Positions 7,417 to 19,861 of a DNA stretch of 23,864 nucleotides are shown one piece after another. The stretch spans positions 1 through 23,864 of the IMG/VR virus record IMGVR_UViG_3300038701_000564. One strand, 5' to 3'. Below the pieces are notes generated by a model. It had not been told where the DNA came from, did no database searches, and worked only from the letters and a program-made list of their open reading frames with translations. The DNA comes from a virus. Positions within the stretch are counted from its first letter, which is position 1. Each line of letters starts with the position of its first letter. The position numbers were made by a program, and so were the translations under genes.

Positions 7417-7445
7417 ATTATACCATCTGTAGTGGCTCGTGTCAA
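7417..7445 (-). promoter_or_regulatory. Consensus sigma70-type promoter, leftward, leaderless geometry
   Basis: The minus strand reads TTGACA (7445-7440), exactly 17 bp, then TATAAT (7422-7417), a perfect consensus pair. Counting seven bases from the -10 box puts +1 on the A of the ATG at 7410. The -35 box overlaps the helicase stop codon (TGA, 7444-7442). This is the best promoter in the window. Confidence 0.85.
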
Positions 7446-11245: not shown

Positions 11246-11319
11246 ATTCCCAGCCACCTTTCGTCATCATCATCCCCGCGCCACCATTGCGCGAGCCATG
11301 CTAGTGCGCGGCGGATCAT
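11242..11319 (-). CDS. Micro-gene, 25 aa, coupled on both sides
   Basis: A 25-codon ORF, MIRRALAWLAQWWRG followed by DDDDERWLGI, exactly fills the gap between two zinc-finger genes. Its ATG (11317-11319) overlaps the upstream TGA (11316-11318), and its TGA (11242-11244) overlaps the next ATG (11243-11245). AAGG lies seven bases before the start. The N-terminal half is an amphipathic, tryptophan-rich basic helix and the C-terminal half is acidic. It could be a membrane- or protein-binding micropeptide, or simply a coupling ORF. It is too short for ordinary gene callers. Confidence 0.6.
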   Translation of the reverse strand: MIRRALAWLAQWWRGDDDDERWLGI

Positions 11320-11861
11320 TGTTGAGCCTTGGCGACATCCAGCCTGCGCTCGATGGCTTCTAGTTCCTTGCGTGCGTCAGTGCGCCGCCGCCGCCAATAG
11401 CTAACACTGTGCGCCGCTGACTTACGCTTGCTGGTTAGTATCGCCAATTCCTGCGCGTCCTTGTTCTTCTGCGCTTCGACTTCCAGTTCGGCGCACCTAG
11501 CAGCGCACTCGTCCTTGTCGCGGTAAAGGTCTTTCGAGTTGTACGAGTGGTAGCAGGTCATGCCTTGCGGCGCGTCTGTGTACTCAACACCATCTTCGTC
11601 GAACCGCAACACCCTCGCCAGCTTCACCGCTCGCGGCTCATGCACACATACCTCATGCTCGATGTAGCCGCGCGGTGGTTCGAAGCCCAGATTGCACACC
11701 CCGCAGTCCATTGCGTGCCTGTCGCCATTGCCAAGCAGGATATGCAGCACCTTCGTGCCTTCACAGTCGGGGCACGTCACGCGTTCTTTGCGGTAGTTTG
11801 ATCCTGCGTGCCATACCGTTTCACCGATGGCAAACGGCACGTCGATACTTGGGTTACTCAT
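11316..11861 (-). CDS. Zinc-finger and coiled-coil protein (181 aa)
   Basis: The start is ATG at 11859-11861 (MSNPSIDVPFAIGETVWHAG), five bases after GAGG and overlapping the TGA of the 34-aa gene. A zinc knuckle pair is present at Cys30/Cys33 (VTCPDCEGTK) and Cys53/Cys56 (MDCGVCNLGF), the spacing of a DnaJ-like or rubredoxin-like site. The C-terminal 75 residues are a charged helix with repeated basic residues (ECAARCAELEVEAQKNKDAQ, SYWRRRRTDARKELEAIERR). It is possibly a nucleic-acid or protein adaptor. No named family is recognised. Confidence 0.75.
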   Translation of the reverse strand: MSNPSIDVPFAIGETVWHAGSNYRKERVTCPDCEGTKVLHILLGNGDRHAMDCGVCNLGFEPPRGYIEHEVCVHEPRAVKLARVLRFDEDGVEYTDAPQGMTCYHSYNSKDLYRDKDECAARCAELEVEAQKNKDAQELAILTSKRKSAAHSVSYWRRRRTDARKELEAIERRLDVAKAQQ

Positions 11862-11962
11862 CCCAACCTCTCCTTCTTCCAAAGTTCAATAGCCAGTTCA
11901 ATCTCAGCAAGCCGCTTGGCTTCCTCACGGTAGGCTTCGCGGAGTTCTGTTGTGTCGATCAT
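11858..11962 (-). CDS. Micro-gene, 34 aa, first in operon
   Basis: The ORF reads MIDTTELREAYREEAKRLAE followed by IELAIELWKKERLG and stops with a TGA that overlaps the next ATG (ATGA at 11858-11861). GGGGGA lies seven bases before the start, and a near-consensus promoter (11988-12016) gives a leader of about 19 nt. The whole protein is predicted to be one amphipathic, strongly charged helix. It is the first gene of the operon that runs through the zinc-finger genes, the oxygenase-like gene and the helicase. Function unknown. Confidence 0.65.
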   Translation of the reverse strand: MIDTTELREAYREEAKRLAEIELAIELWKKERLG

Positions 11963-11987
11963 GTTTGAATCCCCCGTTCGTCAACAG

Positions 11988-12016
11988 ATTCTACACCACG
12001 TATCGGACCCTGTCAA
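11988..12016 (-). promoter_or_regulatory. Near-consensus sigma70-type promoter, leftward
   Basis: The minus strand reads TTGACA (12016-12011), 17 bp, then TAGAAT (11993-11988). Predicted +1 is near 11981, 19 bases before the ATG of the 34-aa gene, leaving room for its GGGGGA site. As at 7417-7445, the -35 box contains the stop codon (TGA) of the gene before it. Confidence 0.8.
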
Positions 12017-12447
12017 GCTAATTCTTTAGTTGGCCACCAGTAGCCCTCTGCCGGTTCTTCTGTCCATCCAAATTTACCATACCACTCAGGGTCTTTGCGG
12101 AGTAGATTGGCCCGGTGGGACGAGTGGAGAAGCGGGTTGCTTAGCCATGAGGGCGCGCACTTCATTCCGCAGAAGCACCAACCAATGTCGTCACACATAT
12201 TGAGGTATGCTCCATGGCAGCGACCCCGCCTCTCTGCCCACTCGTCATTCATAGCATTGGCGTAGGTAACAAGGGCATCTTCATCTTCACGCCACATATT
12301 GACAGCGGGATGGTTCTGCCAGCCGTAATCGGGGTTGGTGATTGCCTTGAGAATCTGTCGGCACTCGATGATCTGCTTACCTAGGCGCTTGAGGTCAAGA
12401 ACCTTAGCACACTGCTCGAAGTCTGGGTATGGAAGGAATGTCTGCAT
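12013..12447 (-). CDS. Pyr_excise / MSMEG_6728 family protein (144 aa)
   Basis: The start is ATG at 12445-12447 (MQTFLPYPDFEQCAKVLDLK), with GGGAG nine bases upstream; a longer frame begins inside the promoter. The text 'RLGKQIIECRQILKAI', 'GWQNHPAVNMWREDEDALVT' and 'LHSSHRANLLRKDPEWYGKF' matches the MSMEG_6728/DUF family placed near the T4 DenV pyrimidine-dimer glycosylase (Pyr_excise). Members are common in bacteria and phages; most are untested, so activity on UV-damaged DNA is possible rather than shown. The gene sits alone between its own promoter (12475-12502) and the next operon's promoter, so it is effectively monocistronic or the head of a read-through unit. Confidence 0.85.
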   Translation of the reverse strand: MQTFLPYPDFEQCAKVLDLKRLGKQIIECRQILKAITNPDYGWQNHPAVNMWREDEDALVTYANAMNDEWAERRGRCHGAYLNMCDDIGWCFCGMKCAPSWLSNPLLHSSHRANLLRKDPEWYGKFGWTEEPAEGYWWPTKELA

Positions 12448-12474
12448 TTGTTTTGTCTCCCTTGGTACACAGGC

Positions 12475-12502
12475 ATTATACCACACCAGATAGACTGGTC
12501 AA
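12475..12502 (-). promoter_or_regulatory. Sigma70-type promoter, leftward
   Basis: The minus strand reads TTGACC (12502-12497), 16 bp, then a perfect TATAAT (12480-12475). Predicted +1 is near 12468, giving a 21-nt leader with GGGAG before the Pyr_excise-like gene. It follows immediately after the terminator-like hairpin at 12511-12529. Confidence 0.75.
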
Positions 12503-12529
12503 ATAGGAAACCCGGAAAGTTTCTCCGGG
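12501..12529 (-). terminator. Hairpin plus T-rich tail, leftward
   Basis: On the minus strand CCCGGA (12529-12524) pairs with TCCGGG (12516-12511) around a 7-nt loop, followed by TTTCCTATTT (12510-12501). It would end leftward transcripts from the promoter at 13025-13053 just before the next promoter begins. The T-tract is interrupted, so efficiency is uncertain. Confidence 0.55.
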
Positions 12530-13018
12530 CCATGTACACAATATATTGGGGTATAGGATGATCTATGAACTACATATAGTTCGTCCCGGTATGACTTTTA
12601 GGTTAGAAGATTTTTACTGCAAGTCGAGTTCAGTGGAACTAGCCATAGGGGTTCCCCAGCCAGAAAAATGGCGAAAAAAGAAACCGGCTATCACCGGACT
12701 GTATGATCTGGACCAAGCGACCCCTAGCCTAAAGCGGTACTGCAAGTCTGAGACGAGTGTTTACTGAGCCATAGGTTTCGTGTGAAGAGCGATGCGGCAC
12801 TGTCACTAGGTTTACCGTCCGGGGTTGCAGGGGCTGCTCACCGGAAGTCTCTTCGTTCTTTCGTGGCGGATCATCACGCAGCTTCCCGGCAGCCACACGA
12901 AAGGCTGTACGGTTTCCTGCGGTCATCTGATTGGGGCTCTGTACGTCCCCCTTCTTCACCCCACTCTCGGTGGGAGTTTCCTGATGCCACTTGGTCCAGT
13001 TGTCAAAGTTTGCTGCTT
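12511..13018 (-). ncRNA. Candidate structured noncoding RNA (about 350-510 nt)
   Basis: This is the only stretch over 300 bases without a convincing gene. It has a promoter (TTGACG, 17 bp, TATACT; +1 near 13018) and two possible 3' ends: the hairpin at 12511-12529, or a short CCGG...CCGG stem (12697-12684) followed by a T-rich run (12683-12672). Possible helices include GTGGG/CCCAC (12974-12970 with 12964-12960), CACGAAAG/CTTTCGTG (12903-12896 with 12865-12858, plus 2 bp after a bulge), TAGGGGT/ACCCCTA (12726-12720 with 12652-12646) and GAACTA-loop-TAGTTC (12582-12567). An 11-nt repeat GACTTGCAGTA occurs twice (12748-12738, 12625-12615). Phages are known to carry large ornate RNAs such as GOLLD and ROOL, but I cannot match this to either. 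The rival reading is a weak 76-aa ORF (12729-12959). Confidence 0.35.
12729..12959 (-). CDS. Doubtful 76-aa ORF within the ncRNA candidate
   Basis: GTG-started ORF (MKKGDVQSPNQMTAGNRTAF, ending NTRLRLAVPL) lying between the promoter at 13025-13053 and the T-rich run at 12672-12683, so its placement would suit a one-gene transcript. Against it: there is no ATG, only GAGAG as a poor ribosome site, unusual composition in its second half, no recognisable domain, and overlap with the predicted stems listed for the noncoding RNA. I keep it only as the alternative reading. Confidence 0.2.
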   Translation of the reverse strand: MKKGDVQSPNQMTAGNRTAFRVAAGKLRDDPPRKNEETSGEQPLQPRTVNLVTVPHRSSHETYGSVNTRLRLAVPL

Positions 13019-13024
13019 GCCACT

Positions 13025-13053
13025 AGTATATCACACGAGTGTCATGGCGTCAA
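13025..13053 (-). promoter_or_regulatory. Sigma70-type promoter, leftward, after portal stop
   Basis: The minus strand reads TTGACG (13053-13048), 17 bp, then TATACT (13030-13025). It lies 10 bases past the portal stop codon and faces the gene-poor stretch 12530-13018. The upstream bases TCTACTTGAC are shared with both arms of the inverted repeat at 1-101. Confidence 0.7.
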
Positions 13054-13062
13054 GTAGAAAAC

Positions 13063-14520
13063 CTACTCATCTGGCACATTTCTCAGGTCGTCTTCATTCT
13101 TCTGTGGCTTGGTGTCCTCTGGCTTTACATCACCACCGTCACCCTGTTTGCGGTCGGGTCTCTGTTCGCCTTCTCCATTGGGGCTTGCTTGGAACCCGGT
13201 GGGTGCTGGATTGACTTCCTTCCAGTCGAACACGTCAGGTGCCCCTTCTGGACGATCAACACCGAGTGTGGCATAGACATCTACCGCATTCAGCGGAATC
13301 TTCATGTCGGCAACCTGCTTGAGTTCGGGTACAGTGAGCCTCTGCTTCTCTGCTGCCGGTCTCAGTGCAAGGTATGGACGTGGTTCATTAGACTTGAGAC
13401 GTGGTAGCTTCTTGCCGCTACTGCCGTCATTCAGCTTGATGAGCCAAGGTAACCAGTCGTTACTGAGGGCATCGCAAATCTTGTTACCGTATGCTGCCAG
13501 TTGCGCGAACTTCTGTTTGTCACCGATGTCCTTACCGCCTCTATCGCCCCCTTCCGTGGACGTGGTGGCTAGATCGTTACCCCAGATCAGCTTGATGGAA
13601 CGACGCTCAAGTACTTCACGATACTGTGTCAGGAACTCCCAAGTGGCCCCCTTGGGTTCAAGAAGCTCGATAGCAGTCTCTTGACTCATGGCAGAGCGGC
13701 GACGACCACTGGACCTCGCAGCCTTGTCAGCAGCAGATCGGAGCCTTGTGGACATCTCATCCGGGCGAAGACTGTCAAGCATCTCCTTGATGAGTTCACG
13801 GGGAAGAGAGTAACGGTCAGCGTAGATACGCATGGCCTTATCGAGTAGCTGTGCCGACTCAGCCAACAGGAACAGTTGGAGTACGTGGTCGATGTCGCCT
13901 TCTGGATTAGTGCCAGCACCCGGACGGAATACTGTCCACTGGGTTCGGTCATACCAACGCCCGACTTGGTCTTTGGCTATCTGTGGATCATCTGCGTTAC
14001 CAGTGAGTTCAGAGACTTTGCCGATGGATCGTTCTGGATTCAGTTGGTCCTGTCTCCAGCCTTCCCAATAGATCACTCCACCAGCTTTCCACTTGCGGGC
14101 ACCACAACCACGGAAGTCGGGGATGTAGTACTCAGTGTCTTCATCGAAGACGGCACGGTGTTGCAGGAAACGAACACCCTCCACCTTGGCACCACACAAC
14201 CAAGCGAGTGCGTCACCGACACCAGAGGCTGCATCTACAATCTTCTGTAGTTCATCCCTCAGGTTACCAGAACCCACAACAGTGAGTTGCATACCAGACA
14301 TTCGCTCAGAGAATTCCATGAGTGGCTGTAGCACCACATCATTCTTGAGCATGGTCTTGTATGCCTTGGAGTCAATCTTGTAGGCATCGTCACCCCAAGA
14401 CTTGATGATGTCTGCCCATACACCTAGGTCTGGCAGTTCCTGATACTGGAACTCCTCGGGCTTGAATTTGGAGACTGTCCACTTCTTGGTTGATTCCCAG
14501 ACATTCTTGAGTGCTGACAT
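13063..14520 (-). CDS. Portal protein, DUF935 / Mu gp29-like (485 aa)
   Basis: The portal forms the dodecameric ring at the capsid vertex through which DNA is packed. The DUF935 pattern is visible around residues 308-365: 'RRSIKLIWGNDLATTSTEGG' (compare the family's 'k.iLGqtlTt..gg'), then 'GGKDIGDKQKFAQLAAYGNK' and 'ICDALSNDWLPWLIKLN'. The N-terminal wing has LLDKAMRIYADRY-type helices, and a central Ser/Arg-rich segment (KAARSSGRRRSAMSQ) is present. The C-terminus (about 440-485) is a disordered charged tail (GDGGDVKPEDTKPQKNEDDL). The length is normal for the family. The start directly follows the terminase TAG, with AGGAG upstream. It is transcribed leftwards with terminase, away from the capsid genes. 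Confidence 0.85.
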   Translation of the reverse strand: MSALKNVWESTKKWTVSKFKPEEFQYQELPDLGVWADIIKSWGDDAYKIDSKAYKTMLKNDVVLQPLMEFSERMSGMQLTVVGSGNLRDELQKIVDAASGVGDALAWLCGAKVEGVRFLQHRAVFDEDTEYYIPDFRGCGARKWKAGGVIYWEGWRQDQLNPERSIGKVSELTGNADDPQIAKDQVGRWYDRTQWTVFRPGAGTNPEGDIDHVLQLFLLAESAQLLDKAMRIYADRYSLPRELIKEMLDSLRPDEMSTRLRSAADKAARSSGRRRSAMSQETAIELLEPKGATWEFLTQYREVLERRSIKLIWGNDLATTSTEGGDRGGKDIGDKQKFAQLAAYGNKICDALSNDWLPWLIKLNDGSSGKKLPRLKSNEPRPYLALRPAAEKQRLTVPELKQVADMKIPLNAVDVYATLGVDRPEGAPDVFDWKEVNPAPTGFQASPNGEGEQRPDRKQGDGGDVKPEDTKPQKNEDDLRNVPDE

Positions 14521-16032: not shown

Positions 16033-16056
16033 ATTCGCTATTCGGGAACAGCGAAT
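16033..16056. repeat. Inverted repeat ATTCGCT...AGCGAAT
   Basis: ATTCGCT (16033-16039) is the exact reverse complement of AGCGAAT (16050-16056), with a 10-bp spacer. It lies immediately upstream of the leftward extended -10 promoter, where a repressor or activator could bind. No T-run follows on either strand, so a terminator is unlikely. Confidence 0.55.
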
Positions 16057-16069
16057 AAACGACCGCAAA

Positions 16070-16085
16070 CCCTATTGGAATAGGG
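16070..16085. repeat. Inverted repeat CCCTATT-GG-AATAGGG
   Basis: Two 7-bp arms with a 2-bp centre form a near-palindromic 16-mer that overlaps the end of the first direct repeat. A related half-site, CCCAATAG, stands at 16119-16126. The compact palindrome is more like a dimer operator than a hairpin. Confidence 0.55.
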
Positions 16086-16119
16086 AGAAGAAAACATTGA
16101 CCCACTGGACAAAACTGGC

Positions 16120-16148
16120 CCAATAGCATGGAAAATCACCCATGTCAA
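16120..16148 (-). promoter_or_regulatory. Possible second leftward promoter
   Basis: The minus strand reads TTGACA (16148-16143), 17 bp, then TATTGG (16125-16120), with TGC before the -10. The -10 is poor (3-4 of 6 matches). If active, it would transcribe through the inverted repeats and direct repeat towards terminase. Confidence 0.3.
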
Positions 16149-16266
16149 TCAGTTTCCTTTTGCTGGTGAAGTTTTTCTTTTCGACCGCAACCCCTTGTGC
16201 ATGGCTCACTAACAGGAATACGACATGCTGTGTCAAGACCAAAATCGAATACCCGCTCAGGAATTA

Positions 16267-16275
16267 TGTTATAAT
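16267..16275 (+). promoter_or_regulatory. Extended -10 promoter for virion operon
   Basis: The plus strand reads TGTTATAAT (16267-16275), with no recognisable -35. Predicted +1 is about 16282, only two bases before the ATG at 16284. AGGAG (16276-16280) would then lie outside the mRNA and could serve only transcripts starting further upstream. Confidence 0.6.
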
Positions 16276-16283
16276 AGGAGCAC

Positions 16284-18847: not shown

Positions 18848-19861
18848 ATGAGTAACATTTCTCCGTCACCAAGCAGCACTCTCCAGCGCCCCGATATCGG
18901 TATGGCACTGATGGAGTTTGAGTTGGGCCAACCGGCCATGCTCAATATCGCCAACGAGGTGATGCCCGTTCAGGAAGTCTCAGAGTTTACCGGCAACTTC
19001 GGTAAGTTTGAGGCGGTTGAACTGGCTCAGGATGCCAATGACCTGAAACGTGCGGCTGGTGCGAGCTATGCGAAGTTCGACTACAAGCTGACTCAGGACA
19101 ACTATGAGACCGAAGAGTATGGTGCCGCTATGGCACTGGACCAACGGTTCATGCAGTCCTACAAGTACGTAGCTGGTCGAGACATTGAAGTCTTCCGCAT
19201 GATTGCGGCTTCGATGGCGCGAGACATGCTGATGCTGGCTCAGGAGAAGCGTGTAGCTGCCGCCATCTTCAATGCCACTACTTGGACTGGTGCAGCACTC
19301 ACCACGGGTGTGACCAACGAATGGGACGATGCCACTAACGCGACCCCTTCGACCGACGTGAAGGCCGCGAAGGAAAAGATTCGTGCCCGCTTCGGTGCCA
19401 TCCGTGAGCAGGACTTGGTTGCCATCATGACTTCGAGTGTGCGTGACAACCTTCGGGTTGCTGACGACATCACCCAGAAGGTCCAGTATGTGCGACCGAC
19501 CAACCAGATGGACATCAGTGATGGCGACATTGCTCGTGCCCTCGGTGTCGGACGACTGATTATCGGTGAAGCCTTCAAGCCCACCCATGGTCAGGGTGCA
19601 AGTGCCCCCGCCTTCTCACGAGTGTGGGATGACGAGTACTGCATGATCGCCAAACTGGCACGACCGGGTCTCCCGACTCAGAGTGGTATGGGTCTTGGTC
19701 TACAGTTCCACTGGGCGGAAGACGGTAGTCAGCCGATGGGCCTTGTCGAGACATACTTCGATGACGATGTCCGTGCTGAGATTGTCCGAGTCCGTCACCA
19801 GTTTGCAGAGAAGGTTCTGATGTCGAACGCAGGCCACCTCCTGAGTAACATCACTAGCTAG
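18848..19861 (+). CDS. Major capsid protein (337 aa)
   Basis: It is placed directly after the protease/scaffold and decoration genes and before the neck genes. The protein has the layout of phage major capsid proteins of about 330-350 aa: an N-terminal arm (SPSSTLQRPDIGMALMEFEL), the segment 'EYGAAMALDQRFMQSYKYVA', long spine helices (IEVFRMIAASMARDMLMLAQ), a P-domain (KEKIRARFGAIREQDLVAIM) and a C-terminal beta part with 'VETYFDDDVRAEIVRVRHQF'. AAGGAA lies seven bases before the ATG. No separate scaffold gene is present because the protease carries one. A hairpin terminator follows, consistent with high expression of this gene. Confidence 0.85.
   Translation: MSNISPSPSSTLQRPDIGMALMEFELGQPAMLNIANEVMPVQEVSEFTGNFGKFEAVELAQDANDLKRAAGASYAKFDYKLTQDNYETEEYGAAMALDQRFMQSYKYVAGRDIEVFRMIAASMARDMLMLAQEKRVAAAIFNATTWTGAALTTGVTNEWDDATNATPSTDVKAAKEKIRARFGAIREQDLVAIMTSSVRDNLRVADDITQKVQYVRPTNQMDISDGDIARALGVGRLIIGEAFKPTHGQGASAPAFSRVWDDEYCMIAKLARPGLPTQSGMGLGLQFHWAEDGSQPMGLVETYFDDDVRAEIVRVRHQFAEKVLMSNAGHLLSNITS

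Follow-up and report, generated by a model that had tools for sequence, protein, structure and literature searches.

A self-promoted gap between the portal and Pyr_excise genes of a phage genome as a candidate small RNA unit

Introduction

What is made from a gap between two phage genes that carries a promoter of its own? Such a gap lies on the minus strand of a virus record of 23,864 bases, referred to here as the window (the whole stretch of DNA that was analyzed), in a phage that is otherwise tightly packed with genes. A first-pass annotation had read it as a separate transcription unit whose product is RNA. Here, that reading is weighed against a gene for a small protein, the remnant of a decayed gene, and a site that acts as DNA.

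Results

The minus-strand genes of the window lie on the left, up to about 16,034, and the plus-strand genes lie on the right, from 16,284. Profile searches recognize genes for terminase, portal, head maturation protease, scaffold, and major head protein. The gap extends from the stop codon of the portal gene at 13063 to the ATG of the Pyr_excise gene at 12447. Its upstream neighbor encodes a Mu-type portal (positions 13063 to 14520, minus strand; PF06074, E value of 1.6e-10), and its downstream neighbor encodes a pyrimidine dimer DNA glycosylase (positions 12013 to 12447, minus strand; Pyr_excise, PF03013, E value of 1.6e-21). Statistics for the gap were computed on positions 12487 to 13062 (576 bp). 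An assembly frameshift was rejected as the origin of the gap, since the neighboring small genes read cleanly from their own starts with no sign of an indel.

Positions 11316 to 13053 hold, on the minus strand, successive cassettes that each have their own promoter: the gap unit (13053), Pyr_excise (12502), and a gene for a 34-amino-acid peptide, which starts at about 11962 (minus strand) behind a promoter at 12016 and is followed by a gene of approximately 188 amino acids. Elsewhere in the window, positions 16035 to 16283 form a divergent control region between the leftward terminase and portal genes and the rightward protease and head genes. The turn of the cumulative GC skew falls close by, and a TATAAT lies just 5′ of the AGGAG-ATG of the protease gene. 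Positions 1 to 101 hold a perfect 26-bp inverted repeat (arms at 1 to 26 and 76 to 101, loop of 49 nucleotides, folding z score of about −6). The first arm opens the contig at its very first base; the repeat may reflect folding back of the assembly at the contig end or be a genuine hairpin or terminator.

The TTGACG-17 bp-TATACT promoter reported by the first-pass annotation is present at positions 13053 to 13025 (minus strand), and the motif scan revealed in addition a TG before the −10 element, making it an extended −10 promoter (TTGACG-N17-TATACT). Its spacing predicts a transcription start at about 13018 (minus strand). From shuffles, 0.125 TG-extended sites with 10 or more of 12 matches are expected per strand; the window has four on its minus strand and none on its plus strand. 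A shuffled gap holds such a promoter in 0.25% of trials (P about 0.0025); this P value and the others given here are post hoc, calculated on features already observed, and carry no correction for how many features were considered.

An ATG follows the remaining three of the strongest promoters in the phage (7445, 12502, and 12016), lying 0 to about 25 nucleotides past the expected start. Among them, the promoter of the next cassette (positions 12475 to 12502, minus strand, by motif scan) has AGGGAG as a Shine-Dalgarno sequence in its leader, ahead of the ATG at 12447, and the promoter at 12016 has GGGGGA. In contrast, the sequence after the gap promoter, AGUGGCAAGCAGCAAACUUUGACAACUGGACCAAG, offers no nearby ATG and no Shine-Dalgarno sequence. 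The promoter at positions 7417 to 7445 (minus strand) is a perfect 12-of-12 TG-extended sigma-70 promoter with its expected start at or beside an ATG (about 7410), which suggests a leaderless mRNA.

Two terminator-like sites were retrieved on the minus strand of the gap by motif scan, although 2.1 are expected by chance, so that the bare count is not above chance. Site 1 (positions 12697 to 12674), which the first-pass annotation had not listed, consists of CCGGTGATAGCCGG, forming a 5-bp hairpin at 12697 to 12684, and then TTTCTTTTTT. It is plausibly the first terminator, which would place there the 3′ end of an RNA of approximately 340 nucleotides. Site 2 (positions 12531 to 12509) consists of GGCCCGGAGAAACTTTCCGGGTT with 10 pairs and the T-rich tail TCCTATTTGA, and it ends just ahead of the −35 element of the next promoter, which begins at 12502. 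This is the terminal hairpin with a T-rich tail that had been described right before that promoter, and it would mark the end of the unit, giving a read-through RNA of approximately 510 nucleotides.

Ensemble folding of the predicted transcript showed an end-to-end helix, P1, formed by CUGGACCAAGUGGC as the 5′ arm (positions 12999 to 12986, minus strand) and GUCGCUUGGUCCAG as the 3′ arm (positions 12721 to 12708, minus strand), the latter ending 10 nucleotides before terminator-like site 1. P1 comprises 14 contiguous pairs, two of them G-U, with a pair probability of 0.98 to 1.00 in the predicted ensemble. A long-range helix as strong as P1 occurs in 0.3% of shuffles when the ends are not preselected and in 0.2% when only the two ends are considered. 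The helix is thus predicted to bound an RNA of about 340 nucleotides.

The folding energy of the gap is ordinary. Relative to shuffled sequences, z scores of −0.43, −0.38, and −1.03 were obtained for 514, 343, and 306 nucleotides, respectively; the same tool gave −2.98 for the RNase P RNA of Escherichia coli (377 nucleotides). Sliding local windows of the gap show no more structure than the coding sequence of the phage. The 3′ part (positions 12508 to 12677) lies somewhat above shuffles in stability, with a z score of −1.94 and 6 of 200 shuffles equally stable. The several short helices noted earlier are therefore no more stable than those of shuffled sequence, and the general idea of an ornate RNA is weakened because the z scores of the gap are near zero.

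The 11-nucleotide repeat reported previously is real and turned out to be part of a longer, diverged repeat with two copies. On the minus strand, a repeat search placed copy 1, CCTATGGCT-N18-GACTTGCAGTA, at positions 12775 to 12738, within P1, and copy 2, CCTATGGCT-N15-GACTTGCAGTA, at positions 12649 to 12615, 3′ of terminator 1. The copies are separated by 123 to 126 bases; their ends are conserved, whereas the part between has diverged. In shuffles, an 11-mer repeat accompanied by a collinear 9-mer arises in 0.01% of cases (P about 0.0001), and the duplication is therefore unlikely to be due to chance. The comparison of the gap with the rest of the window, for similarity or complementarity, gave only short matches with E values of 0.4 and above. 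A resemblance of the motif to the D arm of a tRNA was also considered and rejected, since ARAGORN finds no tRNA and Rfam gives no tRNA match at an E value of 10.

The motif might instead be bound as DNA by a protein of replication, partition, or packaging or by a regulator, in which case the region would act as DNA. A binding site of this kind could look like what is seen here, two collinear elements that each recur once in direct orientation at a distance of about 125 bp, in an AT-richer stretch (41 to 45% G+C, against 53%). However, no copies beyond these two were found across the window, the GC skew shows no large change at the gap and changes direction at about 16,000, and the promoter and P1 would be left unexplained. 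This explanation is considered very unlikely.

The claim that the gap lacks a convincing gene stood only in part. The 76-amino-acid open reading frame listed earlier exists, with a GTG start (positions 12959 to 12729, minus strand), and no homologue of it, or of the 97-codon frame, was found in PHROGs, Pfam, the PDB, phages, or viral contigs; a Pfam match of the 97-codon frame to Polyketide_cyc2 (E value of 0.093) was dismissed. Outside the gap, 14 start codons of the phage were inspected, and 13 have a clear ribosome-binding site of the AGGAG/AAGGA type. Among the starts in the gap that open at least 15 codons, such a site is found only at a TTG with 25 codons, and upstream of the GTG at 12959 there is just GAG, which is not a Shine-Dalgarno sequence of the kind this phage uses. 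The claim thus holds for the ribosome site and for homology, whereas part of the frame has gene-like codons.

These codons form a segment of 61 codons in one frame (positions 13016 to 12834, minus strand; P from <0.001 to 0.04 depending on the background model), the first 19 of which include no start codon. The segment is the best in the gap and scores 19.9 bits, compared with 7.7 ± 1.7 bits in shuffles, and its significance falls to a P value of 0.04 when the sequence's own base composition serves as the background. At 0.11 bits per codon, the 76 codons outscore 98% of stop-free stretches in wrong frames and are outscored by 89% of real ones, and a stop-free run of this length occurs in 29% of shuffles. 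No coding signal was detected in any frame of the AT-rich 3′ third of the gap.

Such values bear on two further explanations. The gap may hold a gene for a small protein, transcribed from the promoter at 13053, translated as 76 amino acids from the GTG at 12959 or as a shorter product from an in-frame ATG near 12923, and ended by terminator 1 or 2; the product would then be a fast-evolving accessory protein of the phage. Consistent with this, the segment scores well above shuffles, the score per codon falls among the lower values of real genes, and the frame resembles further small genes that lie in gaps of the phage. Nevertheless, the GTG lacks a Shine-Dalgarno sequence of the phage's type, the codon signal starts 19 codons ahead of the first possible start, its significance is weak under the sequence's own composition, an equal stop-free run is common in shuffles, and the product has no homologue in the collections searched. 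A small-protein gene is accordingly regarded as unlikely.

A codon signal that begins before any start codon is as compatible with a decayed gene, or with chance, as with a gene. The gap could be the remnant of a decayed or truncated gene between two promoters, carrying only the signals of its neighbors. A codon-like frame that lacks a start and fades after 12834, the ordinary folding energy, and the lack of homologues would all suit such debris. It sits poorly, however, with a near-consensus extended promoter pointing into the gap, which is unlikely to persist by chance, with a significant long-range helix and a duplicated motif, and with the tight packing of the remainder of the phage. A gene remnant is likewise judged improbable.

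A locus related to the gap was sought through the portal, terminase, helicase, head protein, glycosylase, and open frame, as well as by DNA similarity and motif patterns, and none was found. No relatives of the portal, terminase, or helicase were retrieved from viral contigs, and none of the portal from genome contigs or phages. The major head protein (PHROG 1005; positions 18848 to 19861, plus strand) has relatives in 23 viral contigs at 28 to 41% identity, and none of these 23 loci shows similarity to the portal, the terminase, or the gap sequence. The lineage is concluded to be highly diverged or mosaic because the terminase and portal show no similarity in those loci.

Relatives of Pyr_excise were found at five loci, two of which have a gap upstream of the gene with a sequence unrelated to the gap studied here. 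Scans of the viral and genome collections with motif patterns gave 3 viral matches and then 18 viral and 2 genome matches, which were taken as chance because unrelated genes with long open frames contain nearly all of them. No homologous RNA was retrieved from the collections by DNA similarity or motif patterns.

The proposed membership in GOLLD, ROOL, or another Rfam family found no support. The gap has no match at the gathering threshold, and cmscan at E values up to 10 returned a single, meaningless match on the opposite strand. Searches of the record with the GOLLD (RF02032) and ROOL (RF03087) families were empty, the former at an E value of 10; no control genome matched ROOL either, so that cmscan carries the weight. 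An ARAGORN search of the window retrieved no tRNA.

Discussion

The gap is read, with moderate confidence, as a self-contained, moron-like unit that would yield a phage small RNA of 340 to 510 nucleotides. Sequence statistics support the promoter, the helix, the repeat, and the absence of a ribosome-binding site. These same features support a unit that is transcribed separately and lacks a start for translation, and the first-pass interpretation holds in this modest form, as a separate and probably noncoding unit. The small-RNA reading is preferred because the promoter is significant and yet, unlike its kin at 7445, 12502, and 12016, is not followed by an ATG; because the ribosome site is absent while P1 (P of 0.002 to 0.003) and the motif are significant; and because the open frame has no protein homologue and the 3′ third has no coding signal. 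The ordinary folding energy, the codon usage at 13016 to 12834, a terminator count at chance level, and the lack of a homologous RNA count against it. The product of the gap would be RNA, most likely of a type that lies outside every Rfam family and is not yet cataloged. As judged from sequence features, the unit would be transcribed, terminated at the two sites, left untranslated, and active in trans.

Morons are independently transcribed accessory cassettes of phages and usually encode proteins. The gap unit resembles them in lying between structural genes with a promoter and a putative terminator to itself, and the next two cassettes are also self-promoted; it differs in being read as RNA.

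ROOL, whose RNA assembles into a multimeric nanocage, has a model of 574 positions. Many GOLLDs exceed 800 nucleotides, and GOLLD and ROOL often lie near tRNA genes (PMC12286853). Like these, the gap would hold a long noncoding RNA in a phage genome. Unlike them, it has no Rfam match, no tRNAs nearby, and an unexceptional folding energy, and at 340 to 510 nucleotides the candidate is shorter than GOLLD.

Prokaryotic small RNAs (sRNAs) range from 50 to 550 nucleotides, and the phage sRNAs lambda PreS, OOP, and 24B_1 have known targets and act by Hfq or antisense mechanisms (PMC12197685). The gap unit, a candidate drawn from its sequence, fits this size range. It shares with those sRNAs the position of a short noncoding candidate between phage genes, theirs being sometimes transcribed from their own promoter, but differs in having no similarity to any cataloged RNA. 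A phage-encoded sRNA is the candidate for its nearest functional kind. RNA anti-CRISPRs (Racr) are small noncoding phage RNAs that mimic CRISPR repeats (PMC10651486). The gap RNA would also carry a repeated motif, but one in which the ends are conserved and the middle has diverged.

In the proposed mechanism, transcription by a host RNA polymerase of the sigma-70 type would begin near 13018 (minus strand). Most transcripts would stop at terminator 1 (about 12675), giving an RNA of about 340 nucleotides, and part of the transcription would read through to terminator 2 (about 12508), giving about 510 nucleotides. P1, pairing nucleotides ~20 to 33 with ~298 to 311, would close the short RNA and protect its ends. 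The two-copy motif CCUAUGGCU-N15-18-GACUUGCAGUA, which flanks terminator 1, may serve as a pairing or protein-binding site, and the RNA would act, most likely in trans, as a regulator or decoy on host or phage RNA or protein. A bolder proposal, offered tentatively and thought unlikely, is a new class of phage noncoding RNA with an end-to-end helix, made as a form of ~340 nucleotides and a read-through form of ~510 nucleotides, in which termination sets whether one or two copies of the motif are present.

Should the gap prove to hold a small protein or debris, it would show that a promoter and a terminator can make an ordinary gap resemble an RNA gene. If it is transcribed as RNA, it would be a phage sRNA gene outside all Rfam families, from a lineage for which the searched collections contain almost no relatives. 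Its anatomy predicts that the RNA begins near 13018 and ends near 12675 and 12508 and that the motif serves as a binding site.
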